DNA from: Chelativorans multitrophicus
GTDB taxonomy: Bacteria; Pseudomonadota; Alphaproteobacteria; Rhizobiales; Rhizobiaceae
Assembly: GCF_011317445.1 (NCBI RefSeq)
Contig: NZ_JAAAPL010000002.1
Coordinates: forward strand, 248,001-312,000
Direction: 5' to 3'
Length of the DNA stretch: 64,000 nt
In this document: positions 27,442 through 53,162 of the stretch, one piece after another
Position numbering within the stretch: position 1 is the first letter of the stretch
Layout: every line of letters starts with the position of its first letter
Position numbers and translations under genes: made by a program
The notes under the pieces: generated by a model
The model's database searches: none
What the model was told of the DNA's origin: nothing
The model's input: the letters and a program-made list of their open reading frames with translations, nothing else

Positions 27442-27870
27442 TTTATTCATTTCAGTTATTTGCAGATCTTTCCTCCGGCGGGGATACATATTCTTCCCGC
27501 GTTCGAATATCGCTCGAGCGCCCGCGATTGGGCAGGTCTGCCGCCAGGCGACGCCCCCCTCCGTCCGTTCTCCTAACCCTTTGTTAGCGTTAACGCCGCA
27601 TAATCAGGCCTCGTTGTGAAGCCCGGAGAGCTCGGTTTCCGGGCGCCTATTGTGGGGCTTGTTCCCGTTGACGCCCATGATGTCCCATGCTATCCCATGA
27701 CTTCATCAGTTTTCGTTTCAGTCAGGCGTCGAGGGGTGTTCTGCCCGCGGTTTGGGCGGGTGCGGGTGTGCATTTGCGCGTGAGGGCGCGCAGATCGCTT
27801 GAGGAGCCGCAATTTCCTGCGGTCGGAGCAATGCAGAGGGGCAGGACGTCGCCAGTCGCCGTCATAGGAT
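27442..27870. other. Intergenic region between rnpB and mraZ
   Basis: About 430 bases with no supported gene. It starts with an AT-rich stretch after rnpB and contains GTTAGCGTTAAC-like sequence near 27584-27594 and the triple MraZ box at 27673-27697. The promoter of the dcw cluster must lie here. An upstream in-frame extension of rsmH that runs across mraZ is a shadow. Confidence 0.6.
27673..27697 (-). promoter_or_regulatory. MraZ operator: three TGGGN boxes at 10-base spacing
   Basis: On the minus strand TGGGN occurs three times (27693-27697, 27683-27687, 27673-27677), each separated by 5 bases. This is the site recognised by MraZ in E. coli (TGGGN direct repeats with 5-base spacers). It lies about 175 bases before mraZ, so MraZ probably autoregulates the whole dcw cluster here. 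Confidence 0.75.
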
Positions 27871-28341: not shown

Positions 28342-29357
28342 CGGGCTCTGGCGGATATGGCGCTGGCGCCGTGCCGGCTCCTCATCTTCCGGTTCTTCTG
28401 GCGGAGGTGCTGGAAGCGCTTGAGCCCGCACGGGGCAAGCTGATCCTCGACGGCACGTTCGGCGCGGGCGGTTACACCCGCGCATTGCTGGAAGCAGGAG
28501 CCGACGTGATCGCGATCGACCAGGATCCCGACGCGATTGCCGGCGGCAAACCACTTGCCCAGGAGTTCGCCCCAAGGCTGCGGTTGGAGCGCGGGCGTTT
28601 TTCCGAGATGGAGGAGATTGCCGGAGAGATGCTCGACGGCATTGTGCTCGATGTCGGGGTCTCGTCCATGCAGCTCGATCAGGCCGAGCGCGGCTTCTCT
28701 TTTCGCAGGGAAGGGCCGCTCGACATGCGTATGGGCCAGGAGGGAACAAGCGCGGCCGACGTGGTCAATAAATTCAAGGCGGGCGATCTGGCCCGCATCT
28801 TCGGCCTTTTGGGCGAGGAGCGTCACGCAGGCCGCATTGCCCGCGCCATTGAAAAGGGCCGCGCCGAAAAACCGTTTCGGACGACGGGCGATCTGGCGGA
28901 GCTGGTTGAGCGTGTCATCGGCCATAGGCCGACTGACAAAATTCACCCGGCGACGCGCGTCTTTCAGGGATTGCGCATCTTCGTCAATGACGAATTGGGC
29001 GAACTCGCCCGCGCGCTCTTCGCCGCCGAGCGGCTTTTGAAGCCGGGCGGCATTCTCGCCGTGGTCACTTTCCACTCTCTTGAAGACAGAATCGTGAAGC
29101 GCTTTTTGCAGGCCAGATCGGGACCGCAGGCACAATCGCGGCATCTGCCGGAAAAAGCCGCGGCGCAGCCGGTATTCGAGAAGCCGATGAAGCCAGTCTC
29201 TCCCGGCGAGGCGGAGACGGCGGAAAACCCTCGCGCCCGCTCTGCGCACCTGAGGGCGGCGCGGCGCACGGCTCATCCGGCTGGCGTCCAGGATTTCAAA
29301 CTGTTCGGTGTTCCTGCGCTGTTCGTCACTGAACAGCTCGGCGAGAAAGCAAGGTAG
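28338..29357 (+). CDS. rsmH: 16S rRNA (cytosine(1402)-N(4))-methyltransferase RsmH
   Basis: A 339-residue SAM methyltransferase (MraW). [16 protein letters not shown] (about 34-49) is motif I, DQDPDA follows, then [20 protein letters not shown] and [15 protein letters not shown]; all are family signatures. It methylates C1402 in the ribosomal P site. The start at 28338 overlaps mraZ by 4 bases; longer upstream frames run across mraZ and are artefacts. Usual second gene of the dcw cluster. Confidence 0.96.
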
Positions 29358-29361
29358 GCGC

Positions 29362-29748
29362 ATGTTGTTTCGGACCAGCGACGTCGTCCTGATTGCGGTG
29401 ATGCTCTCGGCAGCCGCGTTCACCTACAAGACCAAGCATGACGCGGAAGCCATGATGGACCGCATCGGCAAGCTGGAAACGAACATTCAGCTCGAGAAGG
29501 ATTCGATCGACATTCTCAAAGCCGATTGGAGCCTGTTCACCCAGCCCGGGCGTCTGCAGAAGCTGGCTGAAGCATACCAGACCGAACTCGGGCTTCAGGT
29601 GACGCAGGCGCAGCAGATCGTCGATTTCTCGGCGCTCGGGAGCATTCCCTTCCCGGTCGACAAAGTGGGCGATCTGATCGCTGAACTTGGTGTTGCCGAT
29701 CCCGCGCAAGAAATCGATCCCACCGCAACCGGCGGAGTACGCCCATGA
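29362..29748 (+). CDS. ftsL: Cell division protein FtsL
   Basis: A 128-residue bitopic protein: a short cytoplasmic start MLFRTSD, one transmembrane helix (VVLIAVMLSAAAFTY, about 8-22), then a periplasmic coiled coil (IGKLETNIQLEKDSIDILKADW). Sequence is poorly conserved in this family, so the assignment rests on topology and on its position between rsmH and ftsI. In the divisome it pairs with FtsB and FtsQ and activates FtsW-FtsI. It ends in an ATGA overlap with ftsI. Confidence 0.9.
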   Translation: MLFRTSDVVLIAVMLSAAAFTYKTKHDAEAMMDRIGKLETNIQLEKDSIDILKADWSLFTQPGRLQKLAEAYQTELGLQVTQAQQIVDFSALGSIPFPVDKVGDLIAELGVADPAQEIDPTATGGVRP

Positions 29749-39239: not shown

Positions 39240-40633
39240 AAATGCCGCAGACAATCGGAGTGGTGCACTTTGTGGGCATCGGCGGCATCGGCATGAGCGG
39301 CATCGCAGAGGTTCTGCACACGCTCGGCTACCATGTGCAGGGCTCCGACCAGGCCGAAAATGCCAATGTGGTGCGCCTGCGCGAAAAGGGCATCAAAGCC
39401 TTCATCGGCCATGCAGCGGAGAATCTGGGCGATGCGGAGGTCGTGGTGATCTCCAGCGCCATCAAGCGCGACAACCCGGAATATGTCGCCGCGCGCGAAA
39501 GGCACCTTCCCATCGTGCGCCGCGCGGAAATGCTCGCCGAGCTCATGCGTTTCCGTCAGGCGGTCGCCATCGGCGGCACGCACGGCAAGACCACGACCAC
39601 CTCCATGGTGGCCGCCCTCCTGGATGCGGGCGGGCTTGACCCGACGGTCATCAATGGCGGTATCATCAACGTCTACGGCACCAATGCCCGCATGGGAGAG
39701 GGCGACTGGATGGTGGTGGAAGCCGATGAGAGCGATGGCACCTTTCTCAAGCTCCCCGCCGATATTGCGGTGATAACCAATATCGACCCGGAGCATCTCG
39801 ATCATTACGGCTCCTTCGACAAGGTCCGCGAGGCCTTCCGCCAGTTCGTCGAGAACGTGCCGTTCTACGGTCTCGGCGTCATGTGCATTGATCACCCGGA
39901 AGTGCAGGCGCTTGTCTCCCGCATCGAGGACCGGCGCGTCGTCACCTATGGCGAGAACCTTCAGGCGGATGTCCGGTTCGAGAACCATCGGATGGAGAAC
40001 GGCCACTCCGTATTCGACGTCATCATCCGCGCGCGCAAGAGCGATGCTGTGAAAGCAATGCGCGACCTGCGCCTTCCGATGCCCGGCCGGCACAATGTAT
40101 CCAACGCCACCGCCGCCATTGCCGTCGCCAACGAACTTGGTATGGGCGAAGAGGCTATCCGCAAGGGCCTTGCCGCCTTTGGCGGAGTCAAGCGCCGTTT
40201 CACGCTGACCGGCACCTGGAATGGCATCAGCATCTTCGACGATTACGGGCATCACCCGGTGGAGATCCGCGCCGTGCTGAAAGCTGCGCGCGAGGCCACG
40301 TCGGGCCGCATCATCGCGATCGCCCAACCGCACCGCTATACGCGGCTGCGCGATCTGTTCGATGAATTCTCCGCCTGCTTCAACGATGCCGATACGGTTT
40401 TGGTGGCGCCGGTCTATGCGGCGGGCGAATCGCCGATCGCCGGCATCTCCTCCGAAGCGCTGGTGGCTAGTCTGCGCGCTGCCGGGCACCGCGATGCACG
40501 CTTTATACCGGGCCCGGAAGCGATTGCTCCCATCGTGCGCGAGGCGGCCAATGAAGGCGATTTCGTCGTCTTTCTCGGCGCGGGCAATATCACTCAATGG
40601 GCCTATGCCCTGCCCAAGGAACTCTGTTCGTGA
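39236..40633 (+). CDS. murC: UDP-MurNAc:L-alanine ligase MurC
   Basis: A 465-residue Mur ligase. The N-terminal [15 protein letters not shown] (about 13-27) binds [15 protein letters not shown] (about 116-127) is the ATP loop; [18 protein letters not shown] and [10 protein letters not shown] are MurC-specific blocks. It adds L-alanine, the first residue of the stem peptide. ATGA overlap with murG and GTGA overlap with murB. Confidence 0.97.
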
Positions 40634-41595
40634 CCCGCGGCTCCGTACTCCTTGAAAAGCTCGGCGACCGGCTATCCGGCCTGCGCGGGCGGCTCACGCC
40701 GGATGCCGGCATGGACAAGATCACCTGGTTCCGCGCGGGTGGAGAGGCGGACCTGCTTTTCCAGCCGCAGGATGAGGAGGATCTCGCGGCCTTTCTTAAA
40801 GCGGTGCCTGAAGAAATCCCGGTGACGATTGTCGGCATTGGCTCCAATCTTCTGGTTCGCGACGACGGCATGCGCGGTTTCGTCGTGCGGCTTTCAGCCA
40901 AGGGCTTTGGTGAAGCCGAGGTGATTTCGCCCACCCGTATCCGAGCAGGCGCGGCGATACCGGACAAGCGGCTTGCCGCCTTCGCGCTCGAAGCAGGCAT
41001 CGGCGGCTTCCATTTTTTCCATGGCATTCCCGGAGGTTTGGGCGGTGCGCTGCGCATGAATGCCGGCGCGAATGGCGTGGAGACGAGCGAACGTGTCGTG
41101 GAGGTGCGCGCGCTCGACCGTCGGGGCGAGCTGCACGTGTTTTCCAATGCCGAGATGGGGTATTCCTACCGCGCATCGGCGGCATCGCAGGGGCTTATCT
41201 TCACATCGGCTGTGCTTGAAGGCTACGCGGAGGATCGCGAGGCCATCCGGGCTGCCATGGATGCCGTTCAGCATCATCGCGAAACGGTCCAGCCCATCCG
41301 GGAGAAGACAGGAGGCTCGACCTTCAAAAACCCGGAGGGCACCTCCGCCTGGAAGGAGATCGACAGGGCCGGCTGCCGCGGCCTGATGATTGGCGGCGCC
41401 CAAATGTCGCCCATGCATTGCAATTTCATGATCAATACCGGCACGGCAACCGGCTACGATCTCGAATATCTGGGCGAAACGGTTCGCGCACGCGTTTTGG
41501 AGAATTCCGGCATAAAGCTGGAGTGGGAGATCAAGCGTATCGGCGCCTTTAAGCCGGACCATTCGGTCGATCCGTTCCTCGGCCAATTGCTTTAG
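40630..41595 (+). CDS. murB: UDP-N-acetylenolpyruvoylglucosamine reductase MurB
   Basis: A 321-residue flavoenzyme. FAD-binding [17 protein letters not shown] (about 66-82), [23 protein letters not shown] and the late [10 protein letters not shown] with the catalytic Ser, then the Glu-containing end typical of type I/IIa enzymes. It reduces enolpyruvyl-GlcNAc to MurNAc. The GTG at 40630 overlaps the murC stop by 4 bases. The cluster then breaks for 370 bases. Confidence 0.96.
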
Positions 41596-41965
41596 TTTCT
41601 CAGGGGTGTGCTGTCGGCACTTGAATGCCGATCCGCATGTTCACCGTTCAGGAGCACCGGGGCTCTCGTTGCGCGGAGGCTATGGCTGCGTCTGCCGCGT
41701 TGTCACCCCAAGGTCCGCCGCGGCCGTGTTCACTGTTTTTGGTCTCCCGAAAGGGGCATGCGTCGATCACTTTTGGCAAATTTTAGCAAAAATTGAATCC
41801 TTCGGAATCTCAAGGCCTTGCCACGGAATCAACTCTCTGATTCTTTAGCTAGAAGTATTTCCTGATTTGAGTCGGCGCGTTTGTAGCCGGGGGCTTTCAT
41901 CCAAGTGGCAGTTTTGTGTTGCGAGAGCGCTGCGCTTGTCGCGGCTGGGAAAAGGGCATCGGTGA
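41596..41965. other. Intergenic break in the dcw cluster (murB-ddlB)
   Basis: A 370-base gap where neighbouring genes otherwise overlap. The left half is GC-rich and featureless; the right half (about 41760-41880) is AT-rich, with GCAAATTTTAGCAAAAATTG-type sequence, and holds five GANTC sites. Plus-strand frames of 60-80 codons here have no family character. It probably contains the promoter of ddlB-ftsQ-ftsA-ftsZ. Confidence 0.6.
41795..41873. promoter_or_regulatory. Cluster of five GANTC methylation sites
   Basis: GAATC at 41795-41799, 41805-41809 and 41826-41830, GATTC at 41839-41843 and GAGTC at 41869-41873. By composition about one site per 250-300 bases is expected. GANTC is the CcrM adenine-methylation site, which together with GcrA controls cell-cycle promoters in alphaproteobacteria. 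Position ahead of ddlB-ftsQAZ fits such a role; the role is inferred. Confidence 0.65.
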
Positions 41966-42892
41966 ATGAAGAAAAAGCACGTGGCCGTGCTCATGGGCGG
42001 GTTCTCGTCAGAGAGGCCTGTTTCACTGTCTTCAGGCAATTCCTGCGCCGACGCCCTGGAGGCGGAGGGCTACCGCGTCTCGCGCGTTGACGTCTCGCGT
42101 GATGTCAGCCGTGTCCTTTCTGAATTGAAGCCCGACGTCGCATTCAATGCGCTGCATGGTCCCTTCGGTGAAGATGGTACCGTTCAGGGCGTATTGGAAT
42201 ATCTGGGAATTCCCTACACGCATTCGGGCGTGCTCGCTTCGGCTCTCGCCATGGACAAGGACCTGGCGAAGACCGTCGCTAAATCCGCCGGTATTCCAGT
42301 GGCTTCCTCCCGAGTCATGAACCGCTTCGAGATCGGTGATAAACATCCGATGGAGCCGCCTTATGTCGTCAAGCCGGTAGCCGAGGGGTCAAGCTTCGGC
42401 GTGGTGATCGTTCGCGAGGGACAATCGCATCCGCCGCAGGTCCTGGGCTCTGCCGAATGGGGTTATGGCGAGCGTGTCATGGTCGAGCGCTATATCCCCG
42501 GGCGTGAGCTCACCTGCGCGGTCATGGGGGACCGGGTGCTCGGGGTCTGCGAGATCGTTCCGGTCGGGCACAGCTTCTATGATTACGATTCGAAATATGC
42601 TCCGGGCGGATCAAGGCATGTTTGTCCGGCGGAAATTTCACCGAATATTTACCAAAAAATAGAAAGACTGGCCCTTAAGGCGCACCAAGCGATTGGTTGC
42701 CGGGGCGTGAGTCGTTCGGACTTCCGCTATGACGACCGGCTTCCTGGGGAAGAAGGGATCGTCTGGCTGGAGATCAACACGCAGCCTGGCATGACACCAA
42801 CCTCCTTGGTGCCGGATATCGCCGCTCAGGCGGGGATTGGCTTTGGGGCACTCTTGAGTTGGATGGTGGAGGACGCGTCTTGTCCGCGGTGA
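41966..42892 (+). CDS. ddlB: D-alanine-D-alanine ligase
   Basis: A 308-residue ATP-grasp ligase: [19 protein letters not shown] at the N-terminus, [27 protein letters not shown], the KDLAK segment, [12 protein letters not shown] (grasp loop), and [15 protein letters not shown] with the Mg-binding residues. It makes the D-Ala-D-Ala dipeptide used by MurF. First gene after the dcw break, so it probably heads a separate ddlB-ftsQ-ftsA unit. Overlaps ftsQ. Confidence 0.96.
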
Positions 42893-43773
42893 GCTCAGTG
42901 GGGAAGTGGCGCTCCGGCGTTGCCGGCTTCATATTGCCGCGCCTGCTGCGCAGGCCGATGCGCGTGCTTCAGCGCCTGAGCGAGCGGGAGCTTCCGCCTT
43001 TTGCGGCGAGCGGGGCGAGCTTTGCCTTGTTTGCGCTGGCCGGCCTCTATGGCGTCGTGGAGGGCGGTCATTCAGAAGCGGTGCTGAAGGCCATTACCTC
43101 CCGTGTGGGCTTCGCCATCAATGACGTGCAGGTGTCCGGGAACGAGGAGACGTCCGAGATCGACGTGCTGCAGCAGGTCGGGCTCGATGGATGGACCTCG
43201 ATGGTGGGCTTCAATGTGCGCGAGGCCCGGGCGCGGATCGCGGAACTTCCCTGGGTCGAAAGCGCAACGGTTCGCAAGGTTTATCCGTCGACGCTCGCGA
43301 TCGAGATGGTCGAGAAGGCGCCTTTTGCCCTGTGGCAGCAGGGGAACCAGCTTTCCATTATCGAAGCGGATGGCGACGTAATTGCGCCCTTTGCCGGCGG
43401 GCGTTATGCCATGCTGCCCGTTGTCATCGGCGAGGGTGCCGACAAGGCCGGGCCCGACTTCGTCTCGAAGGTGCAGAAGGTACGGGGGCTTGAGGGGCGC
43501 GTGAAGGCGTATATCCGCGTGGCCGGCAGGCGGTGGGATCTTCGGCTCGACAATGGCGTGACGATCAAACTGCCGGAGAAGGATGTCGAGACGGCGCTCG
43601 CTGAGGTCTCGCGGCTCGATGCGGAATATTCGCTCCTCTCCCGTGACATTACAACGGTCGATCTCAGATTGCCGGATCGGCTGACCGTGGCCCTTGCCCC
43701 GGAGGCGGCTGAAGCGCGTAAGAAAGAGTTCGAGGAAATGGAGCGGAAACGCAAGAAGGGAGCCAGGACATGA
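42880..43773 (+). CDS. ftsQ: Cell division protein FtsQ
   Basis: A bitopic protein of about 297 residues: a basic cytoplasmic start, one transmembrane helix ([18 protein letters not shown]), then a POTRA domain ([27 protein letters not shown]) and the FtsQ domain ([29 protein letters not shown]). It links FtsB-FtsL to the septal synthase. A TTG at 42880 sits 6 bases after GGAGGA and is preferred; a GTG at 42889 makes the GTGA overlap common in this cluster, and an ATG at 42859 is also in frame. ATGA overlap with ftsA. Confidence 0.94.
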
Positions 43774-45083
43774 GCTGGCTTCTCGGAAAAGGCGGAGCGG
43801 CCCAACGTTCAGGTATCATCACCGTGCTCGATGTGGGGTCGAGTAAGGTTTCCTGCATCATCGCCAAACTGTTGCCCGACGAAAATATGCGCGCGCTGCC
43901 GCATCGCACCCATCGCATTAGGGTGGTGGGCATCGGTCATCAGAAATCCCAGGGTGTGAAGTCCGGTGTGGTGGTCGATCTCGACCGCGCGGAGCAGGCG
44001 ATCCGGCTTGCCGTGGACGCTGCGGAGCGGATGGCGGGCCTCACGGTCGACTCGCTCATCGTCAATGTTTCAGCGGGGCGGATCCGCAGTGAGACCGCAT
44101 CCGCCACCATCAATCTCGGCGGGCACGAGGTGGCCAATGCCGATATCGCGCGTGTGCTGCTTGCGGGTGCCCGCCAGGCCCTGCGTGCGGAGCGCGAGGT
44201 GGTGCATTCCCTAGCTGTCGGCTTCTCGCTCGACGTGGAGCGCGGCATTCGCGACCCGAGGGGCATGATGGGCGATGCGCTCGGCGTCGACATGCATGTG
44301 GTCACCGCCGATGCCGTGCCGCTGAGAAATCTGGAACTGTGCATCAATCGGGCGCATCTGTCGGTCGAGCGCATGGTCGCGACGCCTTATGCCAGCGGGC
44401 TCGCGGCTCTGGTCGACGACGAAGCGGAGATGGGAGCAGCCTGCATCGACATGGGCGGCGGCACCACGACCATGTCTGTGTTCGTCGACGGCAAGTTCGT
44501 TCACGCCGATGCCATCCCCGTGGGCGGCAATCATGTGACGATGGATCTGGCGCGCGGCCTCTCAATAAGGCTTTCCGATGCTGAGCGGCTCAAGGTCATG
44601 CAAGGATCCGCACTGCCCGTGACCACCTCCGATGACCGCGAGATGGTCTCGATACAGCCCATCGGCGGCGACGAGATGGACCAGCCGTTGCAGGTGCCGC
44701 GCTCGGTCATGACCCGCATCGTTCGGGCACGGGTCGAGGAAACCCTGGAGCTGGTTAGGGACCGGCTCAATCGTTCGGGTTATGGCGCCCTGGTCGGGCG
44801 CCGGGTTGTGCTCACGGGCGGCGCAAGCCAGCTTTCGGGGTTGCCGGAAGCCGCGCGCCGGCTTCTGGGCAGGAATGTTCGCCTCGGGCGGCCGCTTGGT
44901 GTCGCCGGTTTGCCGGAGGCGGCTAAGGGCGCGGCCTTTGCAGCGCCTGTCGGTCTTTTGATCTATCCGCAGGTTGCGGAATTCGAGAGCCGGGCGGCGG
45001 CAAAGGGTGGCCTGTTCATGCGTGCCACAGGGACAGCAGGCAGGTTTCAGCGTGTCGGACAGTGGTTCCGAGACAGTTTTTGA
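43770..45083 (+). CDS. ftsA: Cell division protein FtsA
   Basis: A 437-residue actin-like ATPase that tethers FtsZ to the membrane. [19 protein letters not shown] (phosphate 1), [11 protein letters not shown] (phosphate 2) and [13 protein letters not shown] (adenosine) are in order; the C-terminus ends in an amphipathic segment ([14 protein letters not shown]), the membrane-targeting helix. ATGA overlap with ftsQ; ftsZ follows after 62 bases. Confidence 0.96.
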
Positions 45084-45145: not shown

Positions 45146-46804
45146 ATGACCATCAATCTTAAGAAGCCGGACATTACCGAGCTTAAGCCGAGGATCACGG
45201 TCTTCGGCGTTGGAGGCGGGGGCGGCAACGCAGTCAACAATATGATTACCGCGGGGCTTCGCGGCGTGGAATTCGTCGTCGCGAACACGGATGCGCAGGC
45301 CCTGACCATGTCGAAAGCCGAGCGCATCATTCAACTCGGCGCCAATGTTACAGAGGGACTTGGCGCGGGGTCTCAGCCGGAGGTGGGCCAGGCCGCGGCC
45401 GAGGAATGCATCGACGAGATCATGGATCATCTGTCGCATACGCATATGTGCTTCGTCACCGCCGGAATGGGCGGCGGCACGGGCACGGGTGCTGCCCCGG
45501 TGGTGGCGCGGGCCGCGCGCGAGAAGGGTATCCTTACCGTCGGTGTGGTCACCAAGCCGTTCCATTTCGAGGGGCAGCGGCGCATGCGCATCGCCGATCT
45601 GGGCATCGAGGAGCTGCAGAAATGCGTCGATACGCTCATCGTGATCCCGAACCAGAACCTCTTCCGCATTGCCAATGACAAGACCACCTTCGCCGACGCC
45701 TTCGCGATGGCGGACCAGGTGCTCTACTCGGGTGTTGCCTGCATCACCGATCTGATGGTGAAGGAAGGCCTCATCAATCTCGACTTCGCCGATGTGCGCT
45801 CGGTCATGCGCGAAATGGGCAAGGCCATGATGGGCACGGGCGAGGCTTCCGGCGAAGGCCGCGCGATGGCGGCGGCGGAAGCTGCGATCGCCAATCCGCT
45901 GCTGGACGAGACCTCCATGAGGGGTGCCAGGGGCCTCCTCATCTCCATCACCGGCGGCCGCGACCTCACCTTGTTCGAGGTGGACGAGGCTGCGACCCGT
46001 ATCCGCGAGGAAGTCGACCAGGATGCGAACATCATCCTCGGCGCGACCTTCGACGAGGAGCTGGAGGGCGTCATCCGCGTTTCGGTCGTCGCCACGGGCA
46101 TCGACAAGGCTGCGCACGACATTTCCGCGCCGCCCTCGGCAACTCGCCAGCCGCCGCGCCCTCAGGGCCTGTCGAAGCCCACGGCCGGTTTCGAAACGCG
46201 CGCTCCTGCCCCGCAGCCAGCTCCTCAGCCGGCAAGGGAGATCCAGCCCGAACCACAGGCGGACGCCCATCACGAGATGGTTGCTGACGCCCTCAGGGTT
46301 GCGCAAGGAGGCGGTGCACCGGCAGCCCAATCTGCCGGGTTCCAGCCGCAGAGCAAGCTTTTCAGGCCTGCCGCCCCTGCGCCGGAGCCGGCGCCCATGC
46401 GGGCGGCCGCCGTCGCGCAACATCAACCCCAGCCGCAGCCGGTTCATGCTGAGCCTGCGCCCGCGCCGCGCATGCCTCGCGTGGAGGACTTTCCGCCGGT
46501 CGTCCAGGCGGAGATCCAGGCTGGCGCTGCGCATGCCGCTCCCGAGCAGGAGGACCGCGGCCCGATGGGTTTGCTGAAGCGCCTGACAACCGGGTTGTCG
46601 CGCCGCGACGAGGATAGCCACGCCGGCCAGGCTCCCGAGCCGCGCTTGCGCCAGGCCGATCCGCGCCGTACCGCGCCGGAAAGCAACATCTACGCGCCGC
46701 GCCGCGGTCAGCTCGACGAGCAGGGCCGGGTCGTACAGCCAAGGGCCTCGCAGGAGGATGACCAGCTCGATATCCCCGCCTTCCTGCGGCGCCAGGCGAA
46801 CTAG
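45146..46804 (+). CDS. ftsZ: Cell division protein FtsZ with long C-terminal linker
   Basis: A 552-residue tubulin homologue. The GTPase core (about 10-320) holds the tubulin signature [14 protein letters not shown] near 110 and the synergy loop segment [11 protein letters not shown]. Residues about 325-535 are a proline/glutamine/alanine-rich disordered linker, and the end [13 protein letters not shown] is the conserved peptide that binds FtsA. Most bacterial FtsZ are 350-420 residues; long linkers are usual in rhizobia. GAAAGGACG precedes the ATG. Confidence 0.97.

Positions 46805-50948: not shown

Positions 50949-53162
<2,214 letters not shown>

Follow-up and report, generated by a model that had tools for sequence, protein, structure and literature searches.

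What is the function of five GANTC sites that occupy a 79-bp span upstream of ddlB in Chelativorans multitrophicus, in a gap of its dcw cluster? GANTC is methylated at its adenine on either strand. The cluster of such methylation sites described here is conserved in a large family of soil-dwelling and host-associated bacteria, which suggests that DNA methylation may help to switch on the division genes at the right time. The window, i.e. the whole 64-kb stretch of DNA that was analyzed, belongs to a 4.82-Mb genome (G000:C8:248001-312000).

The dcw cluster and its GANTC array

Family searches yielded the gene order mraZ, rsmH (mraW), ftsI, murE, murF, mraY, murD, ftsW, murG, murC, murB, ddlB, ftsQ, ftsA, ftsZ, and lpxC, in which the identities of the Mur ligases are those that we take from the usual order within the cluster. 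Where ftsL would be expected, a small ORF (29308-29748) gave no match in Pfam. The genes next to the gap and downstream of it are as follows.

40630-41595, + strand: murB (NF010480, 388 bits); the GTG start, placed by reading the sequence, overlaps the stop codon of murC; in its longest form the ORF extends from 40597
41966-42892, + strand: ddlB, D-alanine--D-alanine ligase (NF002378, 400.8 bits), heading the predicted downstream unit
42859-43773, + strand: ftsQ (POTRA_1 and FtsQ_DivIB_C)
43770-45083, + strand: ftsA (PF14450 and PF02491)
45146-46804, + strand: ftsZ (Tubulin and FtsZ_C), start taken from the translation

The first-pass annotation had described the cluster as sealed by overlaps apart from one large break before ddlB. 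Most junctions do overlap, but gaps are present between murF and mraY (30 bp), mraY and murD (20 bp), and ftsA and ftsZ (62 bp). The murB-ddlB gap (41596-41965, 370 bp) is by far the largest between mraZ and ftsZ, and its description as the only large break was confirmed. GANTC was found neither in the ftsA-ftsZ gap nor around mraZ between 26102 and 29089. Ahead of mraZ, the first gene of the cluster, the stretch 27450-27870 has no GANTC; it does contain TTAGCGTTAACG, a possible CtrA-type site.

The GANTC listing of the 64-kb window placed site starts at 41795, 41805, 41826, 41839, and 41869. These are the sole five in the 370-bp gap, and they occupy exactly the span (41795-41873) first reported, with the rest of the gap empty. 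The array is the densest in the window, where three other spots reach three GANTC sites. Three GANTC within 37 bp at 51236-51272 lie inside a 706-aa ORF (51042-53162) and thus are probably coding sequence. Across the window GANTC is rare, with 107 occurrences versus a mean of 324 in dinucleotide shuffles; under-representation of GANTC is reported for Alphaproteobacteria having CcrM (PMC3973325). Five sites in 79 bp amount to ~40 times the density of the window itself and, by arithmetic from the window shuffles, to ~13 times the shuffle expectation, so that the fifteen-fold enrichment originally claimed is fair. The array is real and beyond chance: five sites in 79 bp were reached in 3 of 20,000 trials when the 370-bp gap was dinucleotide-shuffled and in 2 of 20,000 when the AT-rich 111 bp (41765-41875) were shuffled by themselves.

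The element containing the array was divided into the parts listed below, with their occupancy in 16 genomes of the genus and in the 54 genera of the family that bear the core defined in the next section.

41770-41794, + strand: AT-rich stretch bordering the array on its 5' side, a possible UP-like element; most of the 16 aligned genomes are AT-rich here, with drifting letters
41795-41799, no strand: GANTC site 1, GAATC; 14/16 genomes, 15/54 genera (±1 base)
41805-41809, no strand: GANTC site 2, GAATC; 16/16 genomes, 16/54 genera (±1 base)
41817-41823, + strand: candidate -35, CTTGCCA; C before TTG in 50/54 genera, TTG being fixed by the search pattern
41826-41830, no strand: GANTC site 3, GAATC, between the candidate -35 and -10; 15/16 genomes, 39/54 genera
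41836-41846, + strand: TCT-GATTC-TTT with GANTC site 4 (TGATTCT, which fits YGAKTCK), at or adjoining the candidate -10; 16/16 genomes
41868-41874, + strand: GANTC site 5 in TGAGTCG, an exact match to YGAKTCG, the Caulobacter GcrA motif; 16/16 genomes, YGAKTCG in 47 of the 50 genera with a GANTC at +24 to +31

Conservation in the genus and across the family

Sixteen genomes of the same genus were searched, and ddlB was recovered from all 16. In 13 of them all five sites were present upstream of ddlB with a spacing of 10-21-13-30, plus or minus a base; the remaining three kept four sites, site 3 being absent from one (L004) and site 1 from two (L005 and L010). Sites 1-5 were accordingly occupied in 14, 16, 15, 16, and 16 of the 16 genomes. 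Mean pairwise identity was 82% for the ~85-bp element, 48% for four-fold sites of ddlB, 38% for the gap downstream, and 21% for the 70 bp upstream. Within ddlB, 15 GANTC columns were counted, of which 14 were kept in four genomes or fewer and one in all 16. The element is conserved far above neutral in these genomes. The middle base of site 3 is A, G, or C across the genus while GANTC is kept, as selection on the methylation site itself would predict. Bases of the promoter-like element outside GANTC are conserved as well.

A sequence-only model of the element was used for genome searches. In the genome containing the window it found one copy at E up to 10, the scored set being 150 out of 1022 candidates from the first look; within the same bounds no second copy was obtained. 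Across the family, one copy was detected in each of 90 of 199 genomes (E up to 0.01). DNA upstream of ddlB was then chosen by ddlB protein match, so that the loci were not picked by motif. This set covered 80 of 109 genera; of the 29 left out, 25 had no ddlB among the matches listed, and the other four (g8, g16, g34, and g104) do have matches to the sequence model. TTG-N18-GATTC was present upstream of ddlB in 59 of the 80 genera and absent in 21. A GANTC followed at +24 to +31 in 50 of those 59, and 47 of these 50 sites read YGAKTCG. The corresponding means over 30 shuffled sets were 0.97, 0.10, and 0.0. YGAKTCG by itself is common (30 occurrences in the window, both strands) and carries weight only in combination and through its conservation; TTG-N18-GATTC occurs in the window a single time on either strand, at this element.

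The core, defined as TTG-N18-GATTC plus GA(G/T)TC at +26 to +33 (~30 bp on), was found in 54 of 80 genera. In these, a site within one base of the stated position was present in 15 genera at -44, 16 at -34, 39 at -13, 10 at +13, and 49 at +30, the site at 0 being fixed by the search pattern. Thus, sites 3-5 form the conserved core, and sites 1 and 2 are more local. The genera share ancestry, and the counts are therefore not independent. Outside the family, the core was seen in one (in family f41) of 40 ddlB-upstream loci of the order, which comprised one per family (one family twice) out of 103 genomes with a match; in many of the other loci murB runs, by eye, up to ddlB with little gap. The first-pass annotation had looked to conservation of the sites upstream of ddlB in Hyphomicrobiales. 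Such conservation holds for the core at the level of the family and for four or five sites in all 16 same-genus genomes searched; sites 1 and 2 are more local, and elsewhere in the order the core was seen in the one locus of 40. Half of the refuting condition named in that annotation, a lack of conservation of the sites, is thereby answered in favor of its interpretation, which is partly supported overall.

A pattern scan of named genomes, in which 80 loci of at least 117 stretches were examined, located the core in Mesorhizobium, Phyllobacterium, Brucella, Pseudochrobactrum, Shinella, Agrobacterium, Rhizobium, Mycoplana, and others. As these loci were chosen by pattern, they are uninformative on the frequency of the core itself. 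The distance to ddlB was computed for the genus representatives and for the 80 pattern loci; ddlB began 119-299 bp downstream of the core in 76 of the 80, and three loci end too early for a judgment. The remaining locus (L192), from an Acidobacteria metagenome bin, has the core without ddlB nearby and is either a chance match or a misbinned contig. In the 79 loci other than this bin, the site near +30 read TGAGTCG (59 loci), TGATTCG (14), TGATTCT (3), or TGATTCC (1) and was absent from two. A GANTC pair 6 bp apart, e.g. at -60 and -54, was additionally seen nearer ddlB in ~25 of 87 loci (L051, L052, L063, L069, L115, and others); the window does not have this pair.

The element could, alternatively, act at the RNA level, as a leader or small RNA, or be a short coding sequence. 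It lies directly 5' of ddlB, and a weak consensus fold could be drawn. However, only one of 19 predicted pairs showed a two-sided change, the covariation term was unfavorable (+0.22), and Rfam matched no RNA family up to E = 1 in 41400-42200. The distance between sites 4 and 5 differs by single bases (28-31) among the named loci, which argues against coding. With neither an Rfam match nor supporting covariation, the RNA element was rejected, and we regard an RNA or coding function as extremely improbable.

The conserved bases outside GANTC could instead point to a promoter for another regulator whose site happens to hold GAATC or GATTC, methylation being incidental. An inverted repeat, GAATCA-N6-TGATTC, spans sites 3 and 4, and TCT precedes GATTC in all 54 core-bearing genera, although it is outside the search pattern. 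Rhizobium-type loci, however, have no GANTC at site 3 and hence no inverted repeat, yet they keep site 4 and the site near +30. Furthermore, sites 3 and 5 remain GANTC even where their middle base differs. A regulator of this kind is, on balance, an unlikely explanation.

A candidate promoter and the predicted readers of methylation

The genome was searched for the proteins that would write and read the signal. A GcrA gene was found at G000:C10:262630 above the Pfam cut-off, along with a second, weak match below it. By our own count, the DNA-binding domain of the former shares 36 of 44 residues with the Caulobacter domain of known structure, and this protein scores 145 versus an NCBIfam equivalog cut-off of 280. 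A methylase with N6_N4_Mtase and RAMA domains is located at G000:C1:806336 and scores 647 bits with the CcrM model, the equivalog cut-off of which is 830. As judged from these matches, the genome encodes GcrA and a CcrM-like methylase. Among 199 genomes of the family, RAMA was present in 197 and GcrA in 198, and the three misses are assemblies that are 68, 79, and 76% complete.

According to a review, GcrA binds both the sigma-2 domain and methylated DNA, and it makes methylated promoters open faster (PMC7403470). Activation by GcrA has been tied to YGAKTCG/YGAKTCK at Caulobacter promoters (PMC7987155, PMC8725594), and GcrA-activated promoters without any extended motif found are described for Brevundimonas (PMC7987155). 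Brucella GcrA peaks are reported to be 4.4- and 4.7-fold enriched in GANTC (PMC6813329). In the element, two sites fit the published GcrA motif, site 5 as TGAGTCG and site 4 as TGATTCT.

The best reading, and one that we consider probable from the conserved arrangement, is that the element is a sigma-70 promoter of ddlB-ftsQ-ftsA-ftsZ activated by GcrA when methylated by CcrM. RNA polymerase would bind CTTGCC(A) as the -35 and the region of site 4 as the -10. General sigma-70 promoter geometry underlies the assignment of these parts and of the start. A consensus promoter scan of 41500-42050 gave no match, and so the -35 and -10 are assigned by conservation only; a -10 off consensus would be in keeping with a promoter that needs GcrA. 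CTTG-N18-GATTC is a spacing common to both lineages. If TTGCCA (41818-41823) is the -35, transcription would start near 41853. Site 3 would then map to about -27 and site 5 to about +16, and the upstream edge of the -10 would coincide with site 4. If TTGCCA is followed by a spacer of 17 bp, the -10 hexamer is 41841-41846, and the two methylatable adenines of GATTC would be located at about -13 on the top strand and about -11 on the bottom strand.

The strength of such a promoter would depend on GcrA reading the N6-methyladenine made by CcrM. GcrA, bound to the sigma-2 domain, would contact a nearby methylated GANTC and accelerate opening of the promoter. The functional sites would be 3, 4, and 5, with sites 1 and 2 as possible additional contacts in the lineage studied here. 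Once the replication fork had passed, the sites would be hemimethylated until late CcrM activity restored full methylation, and expression of the Z-ring genes would, we propose, in this way be tied to the replication cycle.

An alternative is the opposite direction, in which full methylation dampens the promoter and hemimethylation after the fork opens it, or an action of methylation on RNA polymerase without GcrA. Sites 3 and 4 may be placed where a methyl group could touch RNA polymerase directly, and ctrA P1 of Caulobacter is described as GcrA-activated once the locus is replicated and hemimethylated (PMC4287350). Site 5, on the other hand, reads YGAKTCG in both lineages and fits the motif of activation at methylated promoters. 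We hold these variants to be distinctly improbable. A result that counts against GcrA-dependent activation itself comes from Agrobacterium, in which CcrM depletion is reported to repress ftsZ less than 2-fold in minimal medium, with no significant effect in complex medium (PMC11514494); the term "ddl" is absent from the main text of that paper. A relative, A. rosae, has both the core and a CtrA-like sequence upstream of ddlB. What the sequences show directly is the conservation of the element, its geometry, the motif match, and the presence of the two genes; promoter activity, the start near 41853, methylation, binding of GcrA, the ddlB-ftsQAZ operon, and cell-cycle timing are predictions from these.

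CtrA-like sequences and known systems

In the window, the 400 bp preceding ddlB contain no TTAA at all, and neither TTAA-N7-TTAA nor a close variant was found there. Upstream of ddlB in the family, a CtrA-like TTAA-N7-TTAA was present in 26 of 80 genera, CtrA-like denoting here a pattern match alone, without shuffle control. The 80 genera comprised 43 with the full core alone, 11 with the core plus a CtrA-like sequence, 13 with a CtrA-like sequence alone, three with bare TTG-N18-GATTC, two with the bare pattern plus a CtrA-like sequence, and eight with neither. In one of the 11 double-form genera (g22), the CtrA-like sequence is upstream of the core. Among the named loci the double form was seen in Rhizobium, Shinella, Agrobacterium, and Mycoplana. 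Variants of GTTAAC(G/C)AAAGTAAACG...TTAACC lie between the GANTC core and ddlB in Rhizobium-type loci (L087, L090, L093, L099, L101-L105, and L109).

These variants and the 13 genera with a CtrA-like sequence and without the core hint at a possible hand-over of the same operon from GcrA to CtrA control. In Sinorhizobium meliloti, CtrA is reported to act on division via minCD (PMC4433202). A more far-reaching idea, which we offer tentatively and consider doubtful, is that site 4 lies at the point where RNA polymerase begins to melt the DNA and that the promoter traded a normal -10 for a methylatable one, such that CcrM marks would be built into promoter melting at the Z-ring genes throughout the family, with CtrA combined or replacing in the Rhizobium group.

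In the open-licence literature searched, no paper joined ftsQ, ddl, and GANTC, and none of the titles and abstract beginnings listed concerned the element. Even close relatives are reported to have strongly different GcrA and CcrM regulons (PMC7987155); despite this divergence, the element is kept across the family, including Mesorhizobium, Phyllobacterium, Brucella, Shinella, and Agrobacterium. It may bear on why CcrM matters for viability outside Caulobacter, a role for which the Agrobacterium study proposes repC-Ch2/ori2 rather than ftsZ (PMC11514494). One candidate promoter and three sites can be named, and lineages that have a second, CtrA-like sequence can be compared with those that lack it.

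Three known systems invite comparison. The repABC-Ch2 promoter (PA) of Agrobacterium tumefaciens, a member of the same family, has three clustered GANTC sites and is likened here by description; unlike the element, PA drives replicon maintenance genes. In Caulobacter, CtrA controls ftsQA (PMC4433202), and the shared feature would be cell-cycle control of the ftsQA region as proposed here; in the Rhizobium/Shinella/Agrobacterium group, but not in the window, the interval from the element to ddlB contains CtrA-like sequences. The GcrA/CcrM promoters of Caulobacter crescentus (mipZ, podJ P2, ctrA P1, and ftsZ by CcrM methylation) resemble the element, a candidate promoter, in having GANTC in the YGAKTCG/YGAKTCK form, in having division genes as targets, which for the element is a prediction, and in belonging to a genome with GcrA and a CcrM-like methylase. 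In Caulobacter, a GANTC placed between -10 and -35 is associated with one timing class, and the GANTC at about -27 of the putative start described here compares with -28/-29 in ctrA P1 and -24 in podJ P2 (PMC4287350). Unlike the Caulobacter promoters, the element lies upstream of ddlB rather than directly before ftsZ, and it combines three widely conserved sites in fixed geometry (-13, 0, +30) with two more local ones.
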